Positions 51,734 to 62,496 are shown, counted from the first letter of the stretch. The stretch is DNA of 64,000 nt from Sphaerochaetaceae bacterium (GCA_028532915.1 JAQQAI010000054.1:1-64000); one strand, 5' to 3'. Numbers and translations: made by a program. The notes: generated from the sequence alone by a model not told the origin.

Positions 51734-52669
51734 TCACGTCATCGGGAAATCAAGAGAGTGAGTGTGCTTCATGTGGGCCTTTCTGATCCTATCGAACGGG
51801 GATTTGAAAAAGGTGCAGCTGTTGATACAGATAGAGCATCCGTAACGGGTGGAGAATGGAACAGCACATCGAGTGTAATCGAGATGATGGTTGTCTGATG
51901 TATCTTCTATAGCATGAGACGGGCAGGCGGTGACACACCTGTTGCAGCTTTTGCAGAAATCTCTGATCCACATATATTCATTCTCTTTACTGAAGGGAAG
52001 GTTCTCGATATCAGTAAATACTGCAGCAATGCGGATGCAGGGGCCGAATGTGGGCGTGATCAGAAGGCCGCTTTTTCCCACCGCCCCCAAATTGGCCTTC
52101 TGTGCGAGATGAGGGTATTTCACTTCTCCTCCCAGAGCCGGTCCTGCTTCTCCGTGAAAATTGTTTTCATTCAGATATCGTTTGATGCTGTTTACCGCAC
52201 GATTCAGTGCATAATAGGTTCTGAAGATCTCCTTTTGAGACTTTTTTGAAGGAGCCGATTCCATGATCGTTCGATCCATATGCATGAGCAGGACGATCGC
52301 ATTCGGATAGACGATCTTCTGATTCGAGAAGATATCCGAACGAGCCGTCTTCGCCCATCCTATCTCATCTATACCCAAAGAGAATATGAATTCTTTCAAT
52401 TCACACAGACCTTCTTCGTCTATACTGGTTCTGAATGATTCAGGTTGATCATTGACCTCTTTGTACGATCTTTTCAACTCTCTTATGCATCCTGCCAGGT
52501 ATGGTCCTATACGAAAAACCGATCGCAATACACTCGAAAACTTTCCGTACCGCAGCACGATATCGGGGACGAACTGCCCTTCTGATGAGTTCTCATCAGG
52601 GAGAATATAGCGGGTAGTTTTCTTCTCATACGAATGGATCGACGGAAGGTGTTTCCTGATATCAATCAT
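51734..52669 (-). CDS. QueG-like / reductive-dehalogenase-like iron-sulfur protein
   Basis: This 311-aa protein has two [4Fe-4S] ferredoxin-type motifs at its C-terminal third: CKSCNRCVTACP and CAVPFSTRYGCSICINSC. The middle (HLAQKANLGAVGKSGLLITPTFGPCIRIAAVFTD) matches epoxyqueuosine reductase QueG and related proteins (AGLGW.GKnsLLI.p..Gsw..l..i.Td). QueG needs cobalamin, and the family shares its fold with reductive dehalogenases. The N-terminal portion diverges from QueG, so it may be a paralogue with another substrate. AAGGAGT precedes the ATG. It is divergent from the cobalamin riboswitch at about 52795, so both may respond to B12 status (inference). Confidence 0.8.
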   Translation of the reverse strand: MIDIRKHLPSIHSYEKKTTRYILPDENSSEGQFVPDIVLRYGKFSSVLRSVFRIGPYLAGCIRELKRSYKEVNDQPESFRTSIDEEGLCELKEFIFSLGIDEIGWAKTARSDIFSNQKIVYPNAIVLLMHMDRTIMESAPSKKSQKEIFRTYYALNRAVNSIKRYLNENNFHGEAGPALGGEVKYPHLAQKANLGAVGKSGLLITPTFGPCIRIAAVFTDIENLPFSKENEYMWIRDFCKSCNRCVTACPSHAIEDTSDNHHLDYTRCAVPFSTRYGCSICINSCTFFKSPFDRIRKAHMKHTHSLDFPMT

Positions 52670-52791
52670 GCTTACTCCTTTCTATCATGATAGCCGATTA
52701 AAGATATTTATCAAATGACTGTTACCGACAATTCTGTCGCTCAAAACGATAACAGCTGGACACGAAAAGAAAACTGTTCTATTCTGTTCAG

Positions 52792-52950
52792 ACATTCATA
52801 AGGATGAGAGAGCGAGGAAGAGGAGTGAGAATCTCCCGCGGACCCGCCACTGTGAGGAAGGAACACCGATACACGAAGCCACTGGAACATAGGTTCCGGG
52901 AAGGCGTACCGGTGAAGGCCTCCAAGCCAGGATATTTGCCTCTTGTCATC
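52792..52950 (+). promoter_or_regulatory. Cobalamin riboswitch
   Basis: The B12-box and conserved core are visible in order: GAGTGAGAATCTCCCGCGG (52826-52844), ACCCGCCACTGTGAGG (52845 on), GAAGCCACTGGAA (52878 on), GGGAAGGCG (52899 on) and AGCCAGGATA (52924 on). These match the adenosylcobalamin aptamer (CCCGCCACTGT, AAGCCACTG, GGGAAGG, AGCCAGGA). After it, CTAAACACAG...CTGAGTTGTTTTAG can form an imperfect hairpin, a candidate expression platform. It lies about 100 bp before a lipoprotein gene and so would shut off the uptake operon at 53055-60636 when B12 is ample. Confidence 0.93.
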
Positions 52951-53054
52951 TTACTAAACACAGCTTCGTGGTCTGAGTTGTTTTAGGGTAGACTCTTCAT
53001 ATACACCCATACCCGCATCCGTTCAGATTCATTTGAAGCACAAAGGAGATTTTG

Positions 53055-53606
53055 ATGAAACACATCAATCGCTGGCGTGCCGTACTCGGTACAATCGTAT
53101 TGGCAGCTCTTGTCGTCTTTGCTTCGACAGGATGTTCTCTGTTCCTATCTTCCACGATGCCGCCCGAAGGGAGCTACGAACTTGTGGGCGATTATGGAAC
53201 TGAAACCTGGGATATCGATGAGGATACCATCAGTTATGACAGCGGCTATACTTCATATGAAGCCGATATCATCTCTACAGTCGTAGATTCCTTCAATGCC
53301 GGTGACAGCACGATCGTAAGTTCAGGTTCATCTCCATCGGGAGATTACGGGTATATGGTGATTCAATATACAACAGTATCTGATGAAGGAACAGGAGAAG
53401 TGGGCAAGTACAACATCTTCCGCTGGCAGGAGAATGCCGATGATGCATCCGCGATGGATTTCACTCAGGGGTATAAGGATGCAGATGGGGAGTCTCCCTA
53501 TATCAATGCACTCTTCGATACCGCACAGGATGCTGTCGATGGGGCTACCAATGACAACGGCTACTTCTCATTTGCCTCTGAAGGGGCTGTTTTACAGACA
53601 TTATAA
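53055..53606 (+). CDS. First lipoprotein of the B12-riboswitch operon
   Basis: This 183-aa protein has a signal peptide with lipobox FASTGC (about residue 27). The mature domain (GSYELVGDYGTETWDIDEDTISYDSG, GDYGYMVIQYTTVSDEGTGEVGKYNIFRWQENADD) is a lipocalin- or beta-sandwich-like stretch with no recognised family. The ATG at 53055 has AAAGGAGA upstream. It comes immediately after the cobalamin riboswitch, so it should be B12-repressed, and is probably an accessory to uptake; it might bind cobamides, but that is inference. Confidence 0.75.
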   Translation: MKHINRWRAVLGTIVLAALVVFASTGCSLFLSSTMPPEGSYELVGDYGTETWDIDEDTISYDSGYTSYEADIISTVVDSFNAGDSTIVSSGSSPSGDYGYMVIQYTTVSDEGTGEVGKYNIFRWQENADDASAMDFTQGYKDADGESPYINALFDTAQDAVDGATNDNGYFSFASEGAVLQTL

Positions 53607-53615
53607 GGGACATCG

Positions 53616-54563
53616 ATGAAAAAAGCCCTTGTCCCCATGATTGTCGCATTCTCATTTCTCTTTGCCGCCTGCTCCACTGATGCAGTTACTCAGTCGCCTT
53701 ATATCGTCGGGGTGACCGAATATGTGTACGGAGTAGGGCAGCATGCTCAATTGGTATCAGAAGGGGAAGAAGAGAATCTGATCGGAGCAACGACGAATTA
53801 TGTGAGACTTGGCGGCTGGGGCGGTTATATCACCGGCCGGTTCGACCACAGTGTGGTCAACCAGGAAGCTGAACATGACGGATACGATCTTGCAATCTAT
53901 CCTCAAGGCGGAGCGGGAAACGAACCGGCTGTGATATACGTGATGAGTGATACCAACGAGAATCAGAAGGCTGATGATGTATGGTATCAGATCAAAGGAA
54001 GCGAATACGATTCGCAGCAGACTGTCACCGTACGGTACTACAAGAACGAGGATTCTGAAGGTTCGATCTTTTACACGATAGACGGAGTAAGTGACGACTC
54101 ATATATCCTTACTGCGAGTGAGTCCTACAACGGTCCTTCATCTTTATGGTGGTGGCCTTTCTACGACACGCTCGATTTCGAATCCATCGAAGGAGCGTCC
54201 GCCGGTGATGACGAGAAGGGAACATACATATCATTCACTGCTGTGATGCTGCCCGATTCAAAAGAGTTCTCAGGCACTTCATGGATCGATATCCCTGACA
54301 GATTCCTGTATGGATACGGTGAGAATTACGGCGGTGAAGATTATCATCTCGTTCCGTTCGGAAAGTCCGAGAAGATGGCGAATTTGATCGACATCTCGGA
54401 TGCAGTTGATGATAAAGGAGATGATGTCTATCTTCCTTCGATCGATTTTATCAAAATTCAGACCGGAGTGTTTCAGGTGTGCGGTGATCTCAATGAGATA
54501 TCCAGCGAGATTGCAGCTGTTGCCGATCTAAGTATGCTGGGGGACGAATGGGAACTCGAATGA
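53616..54563 (+). CDS. B12-operon surface lipoprotein similar to Bacteroidetes 'cell surface protein'
   Basis: This 315-aa lipoprotein (lipobox FAAC near residue 19) contains GRFDHSVVNQEAEHDGYDLAIYPQ, EPAVIYVMSDTNENQKADDVWYQIKGS and a tryptophan-rich WWWPFYDT segment. The Dx[ND]xNxxxDDxWY...GSEY pattern is the one I know from lipoproteins of Bacteroidetes loci under cobalamin riboswitches. The DTNENQKADD stretch resembles a Ca2+-binding loop. A surface cobalamin-binding or escort role is likely but not proven. Its stop overlaps the next gene's start (ATGA). Confidence 0.8.
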   Translation: MKKALVPMIVAFSFLFAACSTDAVTQSPYIVGVTEYVYGVGQHAQLVSEGEEENLIGATTNYVRLGGWGGYITGRFDHSVVNQEAEHDGYDLAIYPQGGAGNEPAVIYVMSDTNENQKADDVWYQIKGSEYDSQQTVTVRYYKNEDSEGSIFYTIDGVSDDSYILTASESYNGPSSLWWWPFYDTLDFESIEGASAGDDEKGTYISFTAVMLPDSKEFSGTSWIDIPDRFLYGYGENYGGEDYHLVPFGKSEKMANLIDISDAVDDKGDDVYLPSIDFIKIQTGVFQVCGDLNEISSEIAAVADLSMLGDEWELE

Positions 54564-55312
54564 GAAAGTATCTTGCATCTATTCTGATCTTTTCAGTATT
54601 TGTCTCTCTATCCGCACAGATGCCGCAGTATGCGAACGCGAGTGAGAGGGCTTTCCCGTTTCTGGAGGCCCTCGATGTACTCGATACGATGAGCGCGATC
54701 GACTCTCTTTCGTACGTTGTCAGCGAAATTAGTGTTCGCACGATCGTTGATAATGATGCGGTCATTGCGGACACCTTATCCTATCCTCCTTTCATTTCGA
54801 TCGCTTCGGCATATCCATCATTCATATTCGTTGACGAAGAGAGTTTTCCGCAGCTGCTTGTAAAACAGAAGGTCGTGGTTTATCCCGGTGTCCATCCGCT
54901 TTTCAGACTACAGCTCATTCTTAAGTTCGGACGGATATTCGGCAGACAGAAGATGGCTGTGGAACTGTATGAGAAGGAAAAGGAAGAGTATCAGAAGCTT
55001 CTTGATTATCTTTCCTATCAGAAGTTCGAAAAACCTCAGGTGACGCTTTTTAGTGAAGATGAATATCTTGAGGCGTTTTTCATCGATGCGGGAGCTTCAC
55101 TCTCGTATGAGAACAACCCGCCTTCTACATCTATCATCTTCAGCTTTGATGGAAGATACTATTCGTTCGACAAGAGGGAGAACGGATCCGGATACAGCGA
55201 TGTTAACTCATCGGCAGTTATCCACCCCCATTACCTGCTGTCAGATATCATCACTCTTTTATACAGCGGTGACCGATCTTCTCTCACCTACATTGAAGAG
55301 GTGAGTTCATGA
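54560..55312 (+). CDS. Short BtuF-like periplasmic binding protein
   Basis: This 250-aa protein has a signal peptide (RKYLASILIFSVFVSLSAQ). The mature part has features of class-III (BtuF/FepB-type) binding proteins: FISIASAYPSFIFVDEESFPQLLVKQKVVVYPGVH, then a linker helix KFGRIFGRQKMAVELYEKEKEEYQKLLDYL, then a second lobe. It is shorter than typical BtuF and lacks a lipobox. No btuC or btuD gene follows in the window, so the ABC importer it would serve must be encoded elsewhere. It is coupled at both ends by ATGA overlaps (54560-54563, 55309-55312). The assignment is an inference from context plus weak resemblance. Confidence 0.6.
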   Translation: MRKYLASILIFSVFVSLSAQMPQYANASERAFPFLEALDVLDTMSAIDSLSYVVSEISVRTIVDNDAVIADTLSYPPFISIASAYPSFIFVDEESFPQLLVKQKVVVYPGVHPLFRLQLILKFGRIFGRQKMAVELYEKEKEEYQKLLDYLSYQKFEKPQVTLFSEDEYLEAFFIDAGASLSYENNPPSTSIIFSFDGRYYSFDKRENGSGYSDVNSSAVIHPHYLLSDIITLLYSGDRSSLTYIEEVSS

Positions 55313-57345
55313 GAAGAGCTTCTGTTCTGTTTCTGTTTATCCTGCTCTCTTTTCATGCGCTCTGTGCAGAAGATGTTCAGACCTATGTGATCACCGCGGA
55401 GGCTGTTACGGATAAAACGGAGTATTCGTACGACAGGAGGGTCATCGACGTCAGTGAGATGAATGTGAGTGAATCGGATACACTTGAGGACCTTCTTGCA
55501 CAGGATGCTCAGGTGACACTGATATCAAGCGGATCGTCGATGATGTCGACGACCGTAAGCCTTCGCGGATCCGATGCAGAGCATGTGGTCATCTTCGTAG
55601 ACGGAAGAAGAGTGAATTCGCTCCAGACCGGCTCATACGATCTGTCGGCGATCCCTCTCTACAATGTGCAGAAGGTTGAGATCCTGCAGGGCGGGATGAG
55701 TGCAGCTTACGGAGAGAACGCCATCGGCGGTGTGATCAACATCATCACCAAAGAAGGGCGTGAAGGAGCCTCCTCTTTCAGTGCCGATGTATCATACGGA
55801 TCATTTCAGACTGTGAAAGGATCTGCCTATCTCGAAAAGAGCTGGATCATCTCCTCTCTGGATTCCCATCCGTTCACTCAACAGGCTCTCAATTATCCTG
55901 AATCATCTCTTCAGCTCTCTTTCGGTGCCTATGGAGAAAGCAGTGACGGAGATTTCACCTATACCCATGAACTGACACAGAACGAACAGATCAGAATCAA
56001 TGCCGGAGGATACAGAGCCGGTACAAGCGGGAAACTTGACTATGTGATCAGCAAATCGAAAGATATCGGAATCAAAGCGGATTTTCAGCTGTATACGGAT
56101 GAAAAGGGTGTGCCGGGTACTGTAGAATTTCCTTTGTCGGATTCTCTTATGAGTGACGACAAAGTCCTCGCAGCGCTTTCTTTCTATGCCGAGAATAATC
56201 CTGTTGCCGATTTTACTGCTGACATTTCGGTCTCGTCTGTCAACAGGACATATGATCCTGATACGGAAAGTACCGATGAGACCCGTTTTGATCACCATTA
56301 TAATGATACATATACACTTTCTGCAGATGCGAAACGGACAGACGTATTCGGCCCTCTGATAAATACACTTTCACTACATACCGATATTCAGCTGGATTCC
56401 CTTGTTTCGACCGCATTGGAGACTCCTTCGGATGACGGAACTGTCGAAGAGGGCTCTTTCTCCCGCTTCCATACAGCGCTGGCAGTGCATGATGAACTAT
56501 CCTACGAAAAAGATAACCTCTCTTTATCTTTTCTTCCATCGTTGAGATATGAGAACAGCGAGATCACCGATGAGGATTCTTCCTATCTGAAACAGAGCAC
56601 CAACAGTGCATGGAACATCGGGTTCGCAGTGAATCTGGGTAAATCTTTTTCTATCAGAGCGAATACGGGGACCTCGTTCAGAGTCCCCTCCTTCGATGAT
56701 CTTTTCTGGTCTTCAACCGCCTTCGCGGTCGGAAATCCCTATCTGGAGGACGAGACGGCTGAAACATTCGATATCAAAGTAGATGCACAGCTTCTCTCCT
56801 CCTGGTCGGTGATGGTTTCCTATTTCTCCCAGAATCTGGACAATATGATCCTGTGGAGTCCTTCTCCTACCGGACAGTGGTCTCCCGACAATATCGGGGA
56901 GGCAAGAAAGAGAGGCGTAGACATCTCGACCTCTCTCTCTTTTCCTTTTGCCTCCGATACCCGCTCTTCGGTAAAATTGAAATACTCATATCTCGATTGT
57001 GTCGATATGACCGAAGGGACTGCCACATACCTCAAAACGATCCCGTACATACCGAAACATACCTTCTCGGCGTTTGTCTCACTTGATATCACCGAACGGG
57101 TAAGAACGACTTTGTCGGTCACCCACACTGGCTACCGGTATCTGACCGCGGAGAACACCAAGATCATCCCCTCGTATACGAAAGTCGATCTTTCAGCTTC
57201 ATGGCAGGTCACTAATCGATGGAAGGTTCTTGCAGGTATCGATAACCTGCTCGACCAGCAGTACTATGATATCCAGTTCTATCCTGTCCCCGGTATCAGC
57301 GCCCGAATATCGGTCAACTATACACGAAAAGGAGTCTCCAAATGA
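55309..57345 (+). CDS. btuB: TonB-dependent outer-membrane receptor, BtuB-like
   Basis: This 678-aa receptor has a signal peptide (SVLFLFILLSFHALCAED), a TonB box-like TYVITAEAV, and a plug domain (LEDLLAQDAQVTLISSG, STTVSLRGSDAEHVVIFVDGRRVNS, VQKVEILQGGMSAAYGENAIGGVINIITK). A 22-strand barrel follows, ending in a C-terminal KVDLSASWQ...LLDQQYYDIQFYPVPGISARISVNYT block. This is a BtuB-family layout. With the riboswitch before it, cobalamin is the predicted substrate. It overlaps its neighbours on both sides by 4 bp. Confidence 0.92.
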   Translation: MRRASVLFLFILLSFHALCAEDVQTYVITAEAVTDKTEYSYDRRVIDVSEMNVSESDTLEDLLAQDAQVTLISSGSSMMSTTVSLRGSDAEHVVIFVDGRRVNSLQTGSYDLSAIPLYNVQKVEILQGGMSAAYGENAIGGVINIITKEGREGASSFSADVSYGSFQTVKGSAYLEKSWIISSLDSHPFTQQALNYPESSLQLSFGAYGESSDGDFTYTHELTQNEQIRINAGGYRAGTSGKLDYVISKSKDIGIKADFQLYTDEKGVPGTVEFPLSDSLMSDDKVLAALSFYAENNPVADFTADISVSSVNRTYDPDTESTDETRFDHHYNDTYTLSADAKRTDVFGPLINTLSLHTDIQLDSLVSTALETPSDDGTVEEGSFSRFHTALAVHDELSYEKDNLSLSFLPSLRYENSEITDEDSSYLKQSTNSAWNIGFAVNLGKSFSIRANTGTSFRVPSFDDLFWSSTAFAVGNPYLEDETAETFDIKVDAQLLSSWSVMVSYFSQNLDNMILWSPSPTGQWSPDNIGEARKRGVDISTSLSFPFASDTRSSVKLKYSYLDCVDMTEGTATYLKTIPYIPKHTFSAFVSLDITERVRTTLSVTHTGYRYLTAENTKIIPSYTKVDLSASWQVTNRWKVLAGIDNLLDQQYYDIQFYPVPGISARISVNYTRKGVSK

Positions 57346-58457
57346 GCAGAAAAAACACATTCACGTCGGCGGCAGTATTGTTTTTGACCTTTCTATTGTG
57401 TATCGGTTGTGATCCTCAACTCACTTCTGGGTTGAGAGAGCAGGATGTCTCGAGGGAGATATTCGTCATCAACAGCCTTGCCCAGACGATCTCGTATTAT
57501 GATATCGACCGGCAGCAGCTGTACAACCGCAGCGCCGACGGCATGCCGTTTACCGTCGGCACTGCTCCGAACCAGCTTATCTACGATGACACGCGCGATT
57601 ATCTGTACTGCGTCAATTCACTGAGCAATTCGATTTCCATCTTCGATCAGGGGACGCTCGAGATGCTCGATGAGTTCTATCTGGGACCGTCGATCAATCC
57701 ATGGAGCATGACTCTCAATGACGATGATTCCACGTATGCCTATGTGAGCGCCTATGTGGGTGACACGATCGAGATCATCGATTTGGATACACTGGAGACA
57801 GTAGAGTCTGTTTCGATTCCTTCAGACGCATCAAATCCGGAGCAGATCGAATATCATGAGGGTCATGTATATCTCTCATACGTGAACTATGATGATGGTG
57901 ATTTTCTCGAGGGAGGGATCCTGGTTTACACGGCCGAAGGCGGTTCTCTCTCTCTGTTGCAGCAATTGAAGGTCCACGAGCAGGCGAATCCGCAGAGTTT
58001 CTTCATCGATGAGAACAATAGTCAGCTCCATCTGATCTGTACGGGAGTGAATGAGTCTGAAGCCGATGACGGGACGGTCGAGATCTTCTCGATGAAGGAT
58101 GACGGTTCTGTGGAATATAGAGATACCCTTGAGATCGGAGGGTCTCCCACTTTCTTCCCATACGCAATCGATTATGACGATTCGATCATCTATCTTGCCA
58201 ATACAGGCGGCTATCTCACATCATACTCACTTCAGAACGGAGAGAGAGAACCTGCTGTCGTTCATGATTCGTCCTCCCCATTGTTCGAAGATGCAGATGA
58301 ATCTCTGTTCGCCGGTGTCGCCATCTATGATGATAAGATCATGATAAGTGCCTTCAGCAGCGATGAGTTGCTGATCATAGACGAGGAGGGTGAATTGCTG
58401 AATGAGATCTCAAGCGGGGACGGACCTCATTACCTGCTCGTTCAGGAGGATGACTAG
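57342..58457 (+). CDS. BtuG-like surface lipoprotein with YVTN-type beta-propeller
   Basis: This 371-aa lipoprotein (signal ending LCIGC, about residue 23) has a beta-propeller of YVTN/YncE-like repeats: EIFVINSLAQTISYYDID, YLYCVNSLSNSISIFDQG, YAYVSAYVGDTIEIIDLD, and further blades to SDELLIIDEEGELLNEISSG. In Bacteroides the lipoprotein propeller BtuG sits on top of BtuB and binds B12 with very high affinity. This gene is the immediate neighbour of the BtuB-like gene (4-bp overlap), under a cobalamin riboswitch, which supports the same role. Sequence similarity alone cannot prove it: YVTN propellers are common. Confidence 0.78.
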   Translation: MSRKNTFTSAAVLFLTFLLCIGCDPQLTSGLREQDVSREIFVINSLAQTISYYDIDRQQLYNRSADGMPFTVGTAPNQLIYDDTRDYLYCVNSLSNSISIFDQGTLEMLDEFYLGPSINPWSMTLNDDDSTYAYVSAYVGDTIEIIDLDTLETVESVSIPSDASNPEQIEYHEGHVYLSYVNYDDGDFLEGGILVYTAEGGSLSLLQQLKVHEQANPQSFFIDENNSQLHLICTGVNESEADDGTVEIFSMKDDGSVEYRDTLEIGGSPTFFPYAIDYDDSIIYLANTGGYLTSYSLQNGEREPAVVHDSSSPLFEDADESLFAGVAIYDDKIMISAFSSDELLIIDEEGELLNEISSGDGPHYLLVQEDD

Positions 58458-58460
58458 ATC

Positions 58461-58985
58461 ATGAGAAAAGCATCACTCCTTCTTTTCCTTGTCCTGATAC
58501 TCACCGCCGGCTGCACCACGATGGAAAGCGAAAGAGAGCCTCTTACCTATGCTCCGTTCATCAAAGAACAGAGCCTTCCTCTTCCGGTGTATCTGAAAAG
58601 GTTCCTCGTTGAGAAAATAGGAGAGCATCTTCAAGTTGAATCTTTTTGCGAGGCAGATGACTATCTTCAAAGTGATACCTATCTGTTTGTATCTGTCACC
58701 ATAGAAGAGGGTGATCCTGCCGATTACAATCTCTATCCCCGCTACGATTTTCTCAGCAGGAAGACTGTGTGGGTGCATCCCGAGGGGGAGAGGAATAAAG
58801 AACTGCATCTCGATATCACCTTCTACGACGGTCGCGATCTGCGCGATTTTTCGGTGTATACACCGGTATATGCTCTGCATTCTTCGACCGTTCTTTCCGA
58901 TTCACAGCTTCTTCTCGATACAGAGGTCCTCGTTCAGATTCATATCAACGATCTGCTTGATTCTCTGAAGGAGAAGGATCTATGA
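58461..58985 (+). CDS. Operon lipoprotein of unknown function
   Basis: This 174-aa lipoprotein (lipobox LTAGC, about residue 18) has a mature domain (PVYLKRFLVEKIGEHLQVESFCEADDYLQSDTYLFVSVTIEEGDPADYN, ELHLDITFYDGRDLRDFSVYTPVYALHSSTVLSDSQLLLDTEVLVQIHINDLL) of alpha/beta type, with no family recognised. It lies between the BtuG-like and tonB genes and overlaps tonB by 4 bp. Such small lipoproteins in TonB operons may stabilise the machine, but nothing here shows that directly. Confidence 0.7.
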   Translation: MRKASLLLFLVLILTAGCTTMESEREPLTYAPFIKEQSLPLPVYLKRFLVEKIGEHLQVESFCEADDYLQSDTYLFVSVTIEEGDPADYNLYPRYDFLSRKTVWVHPEGERNKELHLDITFYDGRDLRDFSVYTPVYALHSSTVLSDSQLLLDTEVLVQIHINDLLDSLKEKDL

Positions 58986-59617
58986 AGAGAAGGAATCTTC
59001 TTCTCCTTTCCGTAACCGTCTCGATGGCGGTGCACATCATGATACTCTCATCAGCATTTGATATGGAAAAAAAGATGGAGAAGAAGGAGACCCCTCCTGC
59101 TTTGATAGCCCCTGTAGCTTCCTTCGTAGAGGAACTGCAGGGCGTTGAACCGCAGATTGAAACGGAGGGAAGCAAAATGGCAGAGGAAGAGACTACCCCT
59201 CCTGCCATTGCTCGGGACCAACAGGAAAGAAATGATGAGACGGTTGTAGAGGAAGGCGGCGAAAGCATCTCTTTCCCCGGTATCTCAGCCGTCCTGCCGG
59301 CGACAGCTGCACAGGGGTTGCCGCCTGTGCAGACATCTTCTGCAGATCATGTCGCCTTCGAACAGCTGCAGGGAGGTGAATCGCTGCCTCTTCCCGAATA
59401 TCCGCCAGATGCCCTGACTGCCGGTATAGAGGGGGAGGTGACAGTGCAGATCGTGATAGGGACCTCGGGAGAGGTCTCCTCCGCACAGATCGTGCGGTCA
59501 TCAGGGTACGACGTGCTGGATGAGGCCTGTCTATCGACAATCCGCTCATCCTGGAAATTCGACAGTAGTGAGACGATACGGGTCAGTACGAAACGTTTCG
59601 TCTTCTCTTTACGATAG
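58982..59617 (+). CDS. tonB: TonB energy-transducing protein
   Basis: This 211-aa TonB has an N-terminal TM anchor (LLLLSVTVSMAVHIMILSSAF). A Glu/Pro/Ala-rich linker (about 35-135) is shorter and less Pro/Lys-rich than in enterobacteria. The C-terminal TonB domain follows (PEYPPDALTAGIEGEVTVQIVIGTSGEVSSAQIVRSSGYDVLDEACLSTIRSSWKF). It links proton motive force captured by ExbBD to outer-membrane receptors. Its place in the B12 operon makes it a dedicated energiser of the BtuB-like receptor. Confidence 0.93.
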   Translation: MKRRNLLLLSVTVSMAVHIMILSSAFDMEKKMEKKETPPALIAPVASFVEELQGVEPQIETEGSKMAEEETTPPAIARDQQERNDETVVEEGGESISFPGISAVLPATAAQGLPPVQTSSADHVAFEQLQGGESLPLPEYPPDALTAGIEGEVTVQIVIGTSGEVSSAQIVRSSGYDVLDEACLSTIRSSWKFDSSETIRVSTKRFVFSLR

Positions 59618-59629
59618 GAGGAACGAATC

Positions 59630-60223
59630 ATGAATCAATGGATATCGAAAGGCGGCATCCTGATGTACCCGCTGCTTCTCTTTTCGGTGATATCGCTTGC
59701 GATCATCATCTATAAGCTTGTTCAGTTCAAAAGCGCCCATATCTCGCACAGGAGAATCGAAAAGGATATTCTCGTGATGGAAGAACAAGGTATTTACAGT
59801 GAGGAGCTGCAGGATGAGGGGCTGCGCCATATGATCGGCCGCCTCGGAGAGTGTGAGAATGCGACAGTGGAAGACAGTGCCCAGCGTTGGGCCGCGATGA
59901 AAAGCGGTGAAGCTGAAGAGTATCTGCATATCCTCCAGCTTATCGGTAACATCTCGCCGATGATAGGATTGTTCGGGACAGTGACAGGACTTGCCATATC
60001 ATTTTATGATATCTCAAGCGTATCATCGACAGTCGATGCATCACTGCTTGCAAACGGAATCTATCAGGCGATGATCACCACCATCGCGGGTCTTGCGGTC
60101 GGCATCCCTTCACAGATCGCGTATCATCTTCTTATCAAACGGGTTGATTCGTGGTCGTTCTCGCTGCAGATAGCTCTCGATTATATTGTGAACTCTTTTA
60201 AGAACAAGAGGAGATCATCATGA
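59630..60223 (+). CDS. exbB: ExbB/TolQ-family proton-channel protein
   Basis: This 197-aa MotA/TolQ/ExbB family protein has an N-terminal TM (ILMYPLLLFSVISLAIIIYKLVQF), a cytoplasmic loop, and the signature C-terminal TM pair ISPMIGLFGTVTGLAISFY and MITTIAGLAVGIPSQIAYH. It is the stator unit that works with ExbD and TonB. AGGAGG precedes the ATG. It overlaps exbD by 4 bp. Confidence 0.93.
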   Translation: MNQWISKGGILMYPLLLFSVISLAIIIYKLVQFKSAHISHRRIEKDILVMEEQGIYSEELQDEGLRHMIGRLGECENATVEDSAQRWAAMKSGEAEEYLHILQLIGNISPMIGLFGTVTGLAISFYDISSVSSTVDASLLANGIYQAMITTIAGLAVGIPSQIAYHLLIKRVDSWSFSLQIALDYIVNSFKNKRRSS

Positions 60224-60636
60224 TAGATATCGGCAGATACAGAAGAAGAAACAAAAGAGGAGATGTGAAACCGGGAGATCTCACATCTCTGATTGATGTA
60301 GTCTTCCTCCTTCTGATCTTCTTCATGGTCACCAGCATAAGTTCCAATCAGATAGAGACCAAAGGAGTTGAAGTAACAGAAAGTGAGGTGGGGCAGACCT
60401 ACGAGGATCCTCTGTACATACTCGTATACTCTTCTGACTGGTATATGATCGACGGAAAGGGATATAATCAGCAGCAGCTTCTTTCATTTCTCAAGCGATT
60501 CAGAGCTGATAAAAATGCTCCGATCGCTGTTGTGGGCAGTTCGAGAAGTCTCTACAATGAGGTTATGAACGCTGTGGATCCGATCATCGAGTCGGGTTTC
60601 ACGAACGTTTCGTTTGCTCTTGATGGCCGGCAATAG
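60220..60636 (+). CDS. exbD: ExbD/TolR-family protein
   Basis: This 138-aa ExbD/TolR protein has a single TM carrying the proton-conducting Asp in SLIDVVFLLLIFFMV and a periplasmic domain (YILVYSSDWYMIDGKGYNQQQLLSFLKRFRA). It completes the dedicated TonB motor of the B12 locus. Its 3' end overlaps the convergent sufBD gene by 38 bp, the longest convergent overlap in the window. Confidence 0.93.
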   Translation: MIDIGRYRRRNKRGDVKPGDLTSLIDVVFLLLIFFMVTSISSNQIETKGVEVTESEVGQTYEDPLYILVYSSDWYMIDGKGYNQQQLLSFLKRFRADKNAPIAVVGSSRSLYNEVMNAVDPIIESGFTNVSFALDGRQ

Positions 60637-61723
60637 ATGCAATGGAATCGACTTCCTTTTTCAGTGAGAAAGGAAGGTTCATGATATCATCGCCGATAAA
60701 GCCTCCGATCATCAGCGAGATAGCTGTCTGTTCATCAACAGATCGGCTCATCAGATACTCTACCTGCTGCGGAGCGATCCTTCCGATGCTCGCTTCATGG
60801 CTCAGCTGAGCTTCGCTGTTGACAGCGCTTATACCCGGAACAGATTCGATTTCCCCTCCATGATCCGTGTCGAGTATCATCCCGGCACAGTCGACATGAC
60901 CCTTACACCTGTTGTACCCGCGTACCATACCTCCCTGAAGCAGAGAACCTCCGGCGCAGATGCCCCGGTGCAGAAGCTGGGCATTGGAGTCAGCCCCTCT
61001 GAGAACCACTTCTCCTCCGATATCGAGGTTCGAATGATCTTTGCACAGAACCACACTTTTCAATATGGCAGATGAGTTATGGCCGTTCAGCGAGACAGTA
61101 GGACGACTGTTGAGACTTTTTGGCGGATGAAGAGATATGTAGGTGTTCACATACGTGCTGTTTTTTTCTACGACGGTAGCAGAATGCATGGAGACCTCGA
61201 TATCGGGAGACTGCCAGTTGTGCAGCATAATCTGAGTAAATTGGCAATTGTTTCCGATGTAGATCTCTTCGACAGAGTAATGTGCCGATTTCCCTGACGC
61301 TATATTACCCGCACATCCGCTTATCAACTGCACAGATGCATCGTCTTCGACCACGATCACCGAATGGACGTATTGGTCCTTTTTGAGCTCATCCATGTAG
61401 ACGCTCAGCTGGCAAGGCAAGACGATCCGAGCTCCCTCCAGTACATGGATGAACAGACCTACAGGGTTGTTCATCCCGGCCATGCGGGAGGTGATCTCGT
61501 CCTGGTCAAAACGGACATTTCTGAAATAGTATCGGTCCAAGAAATCGGGGACATTCTTTATTGCATCTGAAATTGTCATAATCTCCAATCCGGTTTGTGA
61601 TGTTTGTGAGATATAGGTGCTGGAATTGATGATAAAAGATTTTGCACTGCGGTCTTTCTCGCTGTATCCGGTTCTCTCCAGATCTTTTGCCATTTCCTTG
61701 TTCTTGAATATATTGAAGTTCAA
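60599..61723 (-). CDS. SufB/SufD-family Fe-S assembly scaffold (single SufBD/SmsB-like)
   Basis: This 374-aa protein of the SufB/SufD family forms, with SufC, the Fe-S cluster assembly complex. The beta-helix core ends in SEAQLSHEASIGRIAPQQVEYLMSRSVDEQTAISLMIGGF, the family signature. Cysteines in HRGICAGGSLLQGG and RCKGHVDCAGMIL are candidate cluster or sulfur sites. I chose TTG at 61723 because AAAGGAG lies 7 nt before it and it overlaps the sufC stop as TTGA; ATGs at 61750 and 61693 lack ribosome sites. Only one SufB/D-type gene accompanies sufC, unlike the usual sufB plus sufD pair. Confidence 0.87.
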   Translation of the reverse strand: MNFNIFKNKEMAKDLERTGYSEKDRSAKSFIINSSTYISQTSQTGLEIMTISDAIKNVPDFLDRYYFRNVRFDQDEITSRMAGMNNPVGLFIHVLEGARIVLPCQLSVYMDELKKDQYVHSVIVVEDDASVQLISGCAGNIASGKSAHYSVEEIYIGNNCQFTQIMLHNWQSPDIEVSMHSATVVEKNSTYVNTYISLHPPKSLNSRPTVSLNGHNSSAILKSVVLCKDHSNLDIGGEVVLRGADSNAQLLHRGICAGGSLLQGGMVRGYNRCKGHVDCAGMILDTDHGGEIESVPGISAVNSEAQLSHEASIGRIAPQQVEYLMSRSVDEQTAISLMIGGFIGDDIMNLPFSLKKEVDSIASIAGHQEQTKRS

Positions 61724-62496
61724 TATTTTTCTCCTTTGCAGTCCATGCATCTCTCGTATCCGTAAAGCGAGATTGATTCGAGTAGTTTTCTGCTCTCTCC
61801 GCTGCAGACGATGGTGCCGTTTACCATCACATGAGCCATATCTATTCGAAGGTAGTTGATGATCGCTCCGCTGTGTGTGATCAAAAGAGCTCCCGGATTC
61901 ACTTTATGATCTCCTCTTGCAGGATCGAGAAGGTCTTCTATCAGGGCGGCTATCATCTTGATCGCCTGCAGGTCCACTCCTGAATCTATCTCGTCAAGAA
62001 GACTCAGATGTGATTTCATGCACAGAAGCTGGAAAAGCTCGCTTCGCCGTATCTCACCCCCGGACAGTCCGTCGTTCAGGAATCTGTTCAAAAACCTTTC
62101 GACATCAGCTTTTTTTGCAGATGTTTCGTTCATGCATGCAGTATCAGGAAAATTCTCTTTCAAGCGGTCTACGAGTTTCTGCAGAGATACTCCGTCGACG
62201 GTAGGCGGACGCTGAAGAGCCAGCGATATACCCTCACGAGCTCTTTTATCGACTGACCATGAACTGATATCCTGTCCCTTGTACAGAATATTCCCTTTTG
62301 TGATCTCATAACCGCTGAAGCCCATGATCGTCATCAATAGAGTCGTTTTCCCGCTTCCATTAGCTCCCAACAGAACGTGAACTTCTCCGGATGGTATATG
62401 CAGATTAACATTATTAAGCAGTTCGACACCTTCATATTCCACGTGTAGACCTGTTATTTTCAGCAGTGAATGATCTTTATCATTTGTATTACTCAT
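61720..62496 (-). CDS. sufC: SufC-family ABC ATPase
   Basis: This 258-aa SufC-type ATPase has Walker A GANGSGKTT, Q-loop LALQRPP (family form ..a.Q.P..i.G), signature GLSGGEIRR and Walker B LSLLDEIDSGVD, followed by GALLITH. It energises the SufBD scaffold. It is the first gene of the two-gene unit; its stop overlaps the next start. No ribosome site is clear before the ATG, which raises the possibility of a leaderless or short leader mRNA. AACATT-GAAT-AATGTT sits just upstream on the minus strand (62500-62515), a possible operator. Confidence 0.92.
   Translation of the reverse strand: MSNTNDKDHSLLKITGLHVEYEGVELLNNVNLHIPSGEVHVLLGANGSGKTTLLMTIMGFSGYEITKGNILYKGQDISSWSVDKRAREGISLALQRPPTVDGVSLQKLVDRLKENFPDTACMNETSAKKADVERFLNRFLNDGLSGGEIRRSELFQLLCMKSHLSLLDEIDSGVDLQAIKMIAALIEDLLDPARGDHKVNPGALLITHSGAIINYLRIDMAHVMVNGTIVCSGESRKLLESISLYGYERCMDCKGEKY

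Follow-up and report, generated by a model that had tools for sequence, protein, structure and literature searches.

The closest described counterpart of the system treated here is the BtuB-BtuG receptor of Bacteroides with its BtuH lipoproteins (PMC10404256, PMC6143338, PMC8941943). BtuH2 binds B12 through a domain that BtuG1 carries C-terminally, fused to the BtuG propeller (PMC8941943, PMC10404256), and published papers have called BtuG and lipoprotein-capped receptors exclusive to Bacteroidetes; a paper on DUF4465 (PMC13398666) records another B12-binding family, a different one, from Spirochaetota. Here, we analyzed a stretch of 64,000 nucleotides from a Sphaerochaetaceae bacterium (GCA_028532915.1, JAQQAI010000054.1:1-64000; hereafter the window), in which nine same-strand open reading frames (ORFs; 53055-60636, +) lie 3' of a cobalamin riboswitch. 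Judged from sequence, the operon most probably encodes a riboswitch-controlled spirochaete outer-membrane system for cobamide capture and import. In the open-access literature that we searched, subscription journals not being covered, we found neither a spirochaete BtuB-BtuG-BtuH system described nor LP1, the lipoprotein encoded by the first gene.

A preliminary description of this DNA had proposed a Bacteroidetes-style B12 capture locus, in a probably spirochaetal context, with a cobalamin aptamer ahead of nine nearly gapless genes. The spirochaetal context was confirmed, and the proposed capture locus was strengthened by BtuH homology, by class-wide synteny and by the finding that its TonB system is the only one in the genome. 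The aptamer was recovered over the full length of its covariance model at 76.4 bits, compared with a gathering score of 31.5, and the ORFs are separated by gaps of 9, 3 and 12 bases, the remaining five junctions being overlaps. Pfam and NCBIfam recognize the receptor, TonB, ExbB, ExbD and a lactonase/YVTN-type propeller and give no convincing match for the other four of the nine genes. The features are as follows.

52775-52957 (+), cobalamin riboswitch aptamer RF00174 (cmscan 76.4 bits, E 4.6e-17, model positions 1-189 of 189)
53055-53606 (+), lipoprotein LP1, first gene after the riboswitch, founding a lipoprotein family that has no annotation
53616-54563 (+), BtuH-type lipoprotein (B12-binding domain) of 315 residues, by profile and hhalign homology
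54548-55312 (+), shortened BtuF-family periplasmic binding protein with a Sec signal and no lipobox, by hhalign to BtuF
55309-57345 (+), BtuB-like TonB-dependent receptor (PF07715 1e-19, PF00593 6e-40)
57342-58457 (+), BtuG-like lipoprotein, a seven-bladed beta-propeller and candidate receptor lid, by structural model, Foldseek, hhalign and position
58461-58985 (+), small lipoprotein LP6, with a counterpart of 22% identity in the same position of locus L009
58982-59617 (+), TonB (PF03544 5e-16)
59630-60223 (+), ExbB (PF01618 3e-24)
60220-60636 (+), ExbD (PF02472 6e-15)

The product of 53616-54563 is a BtuH-type lipoprotein, a homology at E about 1e-37 that the preliminary description had missed. 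Its profile, built with two relatives, matches the H-domain of BtuG1 (8blw_B, E 7.6e-38) and BtuH2 (7biz, E 1.3e-37), and hhalign to Bacteroidota BtuH gives E 1.6e-49. Since BtuG1 is a fusion of H-domain and propeller, a single Bacteroides protein combines partners that are encoded separately here. Cobamide binding may be expected from this homology. Among the BtuH2 contact residues reported in PMC8941943, compared by alignment, the window protein retains Q333, W511 and L578, and it has the D-x-N-x-N loop as well; N399, H476 and W577 are altered to Q, N and D, respectively, and F401 and Y510 are not kept. Gln333 is also kept in most of the spirochaete members. An assignment to DUF4465/BtuJ, considered for this gene, was dropped, as the match is to BtuH, a different domain. 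In loci without BtuH, the second slot, after LP1, holds other lipoproteins with a short, distant profile match to BtuH, which are candidate alternative cobamide binders; none of the three scanned has a Pfam annotation. Those of L053, L054, L055, L061, L063, L138 and L142 are unlike BtuH in sequence. BtuH-type domains also end long spirochaete lipoproteins in genome G344 (L047, 2793-4610, and L048, 1481-3544), which have no BtuB or BtuG matches nearby and are reminiscent of the long BtuH proteins of Bacteroides.

The receptor, a plug and barrel with a TonB-box-like TYVITA close to its mature N-terminus, resembles several receptor classes, and its best NCBIfam model is TIGR01779, TonB-B12 (E 9e-53). 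The score of 179.7 bits lies below the cut-off of 599.7, so the protein is BtuB-like, as the preliminary description had it, and not a certified equivalog. The tonB-exbB-exbD set named there was likewise recovered, and the genome, which is 97% complete, contains a single match each to Plug, TonB_C and ExbD, all in this operon. With one receptor, one TonB and one ExbD genome-wide, the TonB system probably serves a single client.

Between the BtuH-type gene and the receptor, 54548-55312 encodes what is, by sequence, a distant, shortened BtuF relative. Neither Pfam, including Peripla_BP_2 (PF01497), nor NCBIfam matches this product, and its earlier designation as BtuF-like was upheld by hhalign to true BtuFs (probability 91%, E 1e-6); its hidden Markov model (HMM) finds BtuF-type proteins in L138 (1e-10), B. 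finegoldii (7e-5) and L053 (9e-4). A full BtuF-BtuC-BtuD set lies on another contig with its own cobalamin riboswitch, and a third such riboswitch precedes the genes for an anaerobic ribonucleotide reductase of class III and for its activase; in L053, BtuFCD stands within the LP1/BtuB operon itself. The genome encodes MetH and corrinoid methyltransferase proteins. Its sole TP_methylase is the 16S rRNA enzyme and no corrin-ring methylases were found, so corrin-ring synthesis looks absent.

The distribution of the locus was examined in 395 genomes of the class. It recurs, patchily, in about 10 families, with the general order riboswitch, LP1, BtuH-type or other lipoprotein, (BtuF-like), BtuB, propeller, (LP6), TonB, (ExbB-ExbD). 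The complete nine-gene order is also present in G027 (L009), and in G097 the gene set is divided between two contigs. BtuH-type genes were found in 9 genomes, propellers in 17 and LP1 homologues in 32. LP1 adjoins btuB in nearly all loci read and is the first gene after the cobalamin riboswitch in 17 distinct loci, window included, the same riboswitch clan lying 5' of the first gene in the 16 other relatives. This holds for L139, which has LP1 and BtuB without a propeller and is still riboswitch-led; in L137 (genome G043), riboswitch and LP1 are followed by a lipoprotein, TonB and a BtuFCD-like set of BtuF-like protein, ABC permease and ATPase, with no BtuB or propeller match in the stretch read. 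LP1 has no Pfam or NCBIfam match and no convincing match in the PDB, and a search of four Bacteroidota loci did not detect it. Its model (predicted local distance difference test, pLDDT, 80) is small and rich in beta structure, and its structural neighbors are lipocalin-like and weak; a lipocalin-like assignment was rejected because the best neighbor, Treponema pallidum Tp0751, is too weak (Foldseek E 0.17; VIA Z 9.5 over 96 residues). An LP1 match in L143, with neither riboswitch nor BtuB nearby, is probably due to chance. We regard LP1 as a candidate new B12-acquisition protein, strongly associated with the locus, that may take part in binding.

How far the parallel with Bacteroides extends depends on the propeller, which follows BtuB immediately in all propeller loci read, spanning about 10 families, as well as in Persicobacter. 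Its predicted structure (pLDDT 90.5) retrieves BtuG chains from the PDB at Foldseek ranks 1-4 and for most of the best 15 matches. In hhalign comparisons, Bacteroidota BtuG leads with a full-length match (E 4.8e-18), ahead of other spirochaete YVTN proteins (4e-14, over half the length) and lactonases (8e-8). Conversely, the Bacteroidota BtuG profile finds only the locus propeller in this genome (E 1.6e-8), and across 13 spirochaete genomes the locus propeller is best in six of the eight with matches. The raw HMM score was dropped as a BtuG criterion, as unrelated spirochaete YVTN proteins score too. The propeller's net charge of -57 agrees with PMC10404256, where BtuG is described as having a negatively charged face, but this is weak evidence because the genus also has an unrelated propeller that is almost as acidic. 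Under an alternative that we consider rather unlikely, B12 uptake with BtuH-type capture is real, but instead of a corrinoid-binding lid the propeller would be an ordinary lipoprotein of the YVTN/YncE kind, with some structural or other function. This would fit the best raw PDB profile match, the generic YVTN protein 1l0q, and the fold scores and pocket residues described next, which also weigh against the main reading. VIA-align Z-scores are tied between BtuG (33.0) and a 6-phosphogluconolactonase-type protein (33.1), so that fold alone does not decide BtuG membership. The BtuG2 pocket aromatics W194, Y239, W272, Y316 and Y335 are not conserved in spirochaete propellers, and only one of the five positions is aromatic in the window propeller (W272 to F), in an alignment that is uncertain at this distance; W194 and Y239 vary in Persicobacter BtuG too. 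Two further points count against the main reading. By inspection, no Bacteroidetes-type export signal is evident. The joint branch of spirochaete locus propellers and BtuG in a first tree (97/89), which also held one probably misread ORF (L075, branch length 4.4), was unstable in a second tree that omitted L075 and two other rows, where a divergent YVTN protein fell between the two groups; an approximately unbiased test (p 0.43) neither requires nor rejects the joint clade. Pfam DUF5074 (PF16819), the BtuG family, matched the three Bacteroidota BtuGs scanned and did not match the window propeller even at E 1; relative L050 shows a weak match, E 1.9e-4, below the cut-off. The constant position after BtuB, the full-length BtuG profile and the L050 match argue against an ordinary YVTN protein. 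The earlier BtuG-like designation is supported by position, profile and Foldseek and not by Z-scores or pocket; the propeller is a probable BtuG by place and ancestry, with a putative ligand and lid role.

The preliminary description had left open a distinct or a transferred system. That this spirochaete recently acquired a Bacteroidota B12 locus by horizontal transfer, which we hold to be highly improbable, would account for the homologous BtuH-BtuB-BtuG set in Bacteroidota and for the patchiness of the propeller within the class. Against it, the spirochaete propellers cluster together (83/93 and 93/96) and so do the spirochaete BtuBs (77/89), in trees that sampled four Bacteroidota loci only, LP1 is missing from the matches in those four loci, and the locus is common to about 10 families. 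These separate groups suggest either an old spirochaete system or a transfer in the distant past; of the two earlier options the distinct one is favored and recent transfer is not supported. That the receptor imports something else, for instance a siderophore or a different metal-tetrapyrrole, appears scarcely credible: its sub-threshold TonB-B12 score and its resemblance to several receptor classes would allow it, whereas the cobalamin riboswitch that leads 17 distinct loci, the BtuH homology and the BtuFCD genes in the L053 operon speak for B12.

From the riboswitch, the homologies, the gene order, the sole receptor, the sole motor and the B12-dependent enzymes, all of them computed, we infer a route for cobamide capture and import, including its binding steps, surface exposure, lid contact and B12 response. 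When cobamide is scarce, the riboswitch would permit expression, as expected from its family. Outer-membrane lipoproteins, of the BtuH type and perhaps also LP1, would bind cobamides tightly; the propeller, capping the BtuB-like receptor as a lid, would accept the cobamide and pass it down, and the dedicated TonB-ExbB-ExbD motor would open the receptor plug. In the periplasm, the ligand would pass to the true BtuF or to its shortened relative, and BtuCD, encoded elsewhere under the second cobalamin riboswitch, would import it. A bolder version, whose chances we put a little short of even, is that a lipoprotein-capped, TonB-dependent B12 transporter arose, or has persisted for a long time, outside Bacteroidota, that its propeller pocket differs, and that LP1 represents an undescribed family of cobamide-handling surface lipoproteins, here the most constant companion of BtuB. 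A class-wide spirochaete counterpart of the Bacteroides system would remove the exclusivity claimed for Bacteroidetes and explain how spirochaetes that do not make B12 are able to compete for it. It would also supply a naturally occurring genome with a single receptor and a single TonB, motor and receptor working only with one another, and in LP1 a new protein family whose role can be tested.

Several details of the operon and its surroundings complete the description. The first ORF opens with ATG at 53055, with AAGGAG upstream, and purine-rich Shine-Dalgarno-like stretches stand 5' of operon start codons. No terminator-like site was found in the leader as an expression platform, and the leader fold shows no improvement over shuffled sequences (z 0.17). 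By inspection, lipobox cysteines occur at C27 (STGC) in the 53055 product, C19 in that of 53616, C23 in that of 57342 and C18 in that of 58461, which makes four lipoproteins; the three counted earlier hold only if the propeller is reckoned separately. In most other loci, LP6 was not detected. At their 3' ends, exbD and a convergent sufD-like gene (60599-61750, -) overlap by 38 bases (60599-60636). A divergent gene (51734-52669, -) encodes a 4Fe-4S protein resembling reductive dehalogenases (6e-14) and QueG (9e-11), which are cobalamin-dependent families, and is a possible B12-using neighbor.

Among loci beyond the spirochaetes, two from metagenome-assembled genomes labeled Proteobacteria (L068 and L069) lack LP1, BtuH and BtuG matches; they share with the window a dedicated TonB-ExbBD, in the order riboswitch, BtuB, BtuF-type proteins, ExbB, ExbD and TonB. 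In both, a protein of about 680 residues accompanies BtuB, which in L069 joins BtuF-like and CbiS-like parts. The plasmid loci L073 and L074 of Persicobacter (Bacteroidota, Cytophagales) have, unlike the window, no LP1 and no TonB match in the stretches read, and their sequences are distant (E about 1e-5 to 2e-6 with the spirochaete propeller HMM), yet they keep the same BtuH-BtuB-BtuG order. The B. finegoldii locus reads as the known J-H-L-G-B-F-C-D arrangement. Compared with the Bacteroides BtuB-BtuG system with BtuH (PMC10404256, PMC6143338, PMC8941943), the window locus belongs to another phylum, does not conserve the BtuG2 pocket aromatics, adds the new LP1 family, and carries TonB-ExbBD inside the operon with BtuCD elsewhere. 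It shares with that system a riboswitch-led locus, a BtuB-like receptor beside a lipoprotein propeller, a BtuH-domain lipoprotein, a BtuF relative, and B12 dependence in a genome in which no ring synthesis was found.

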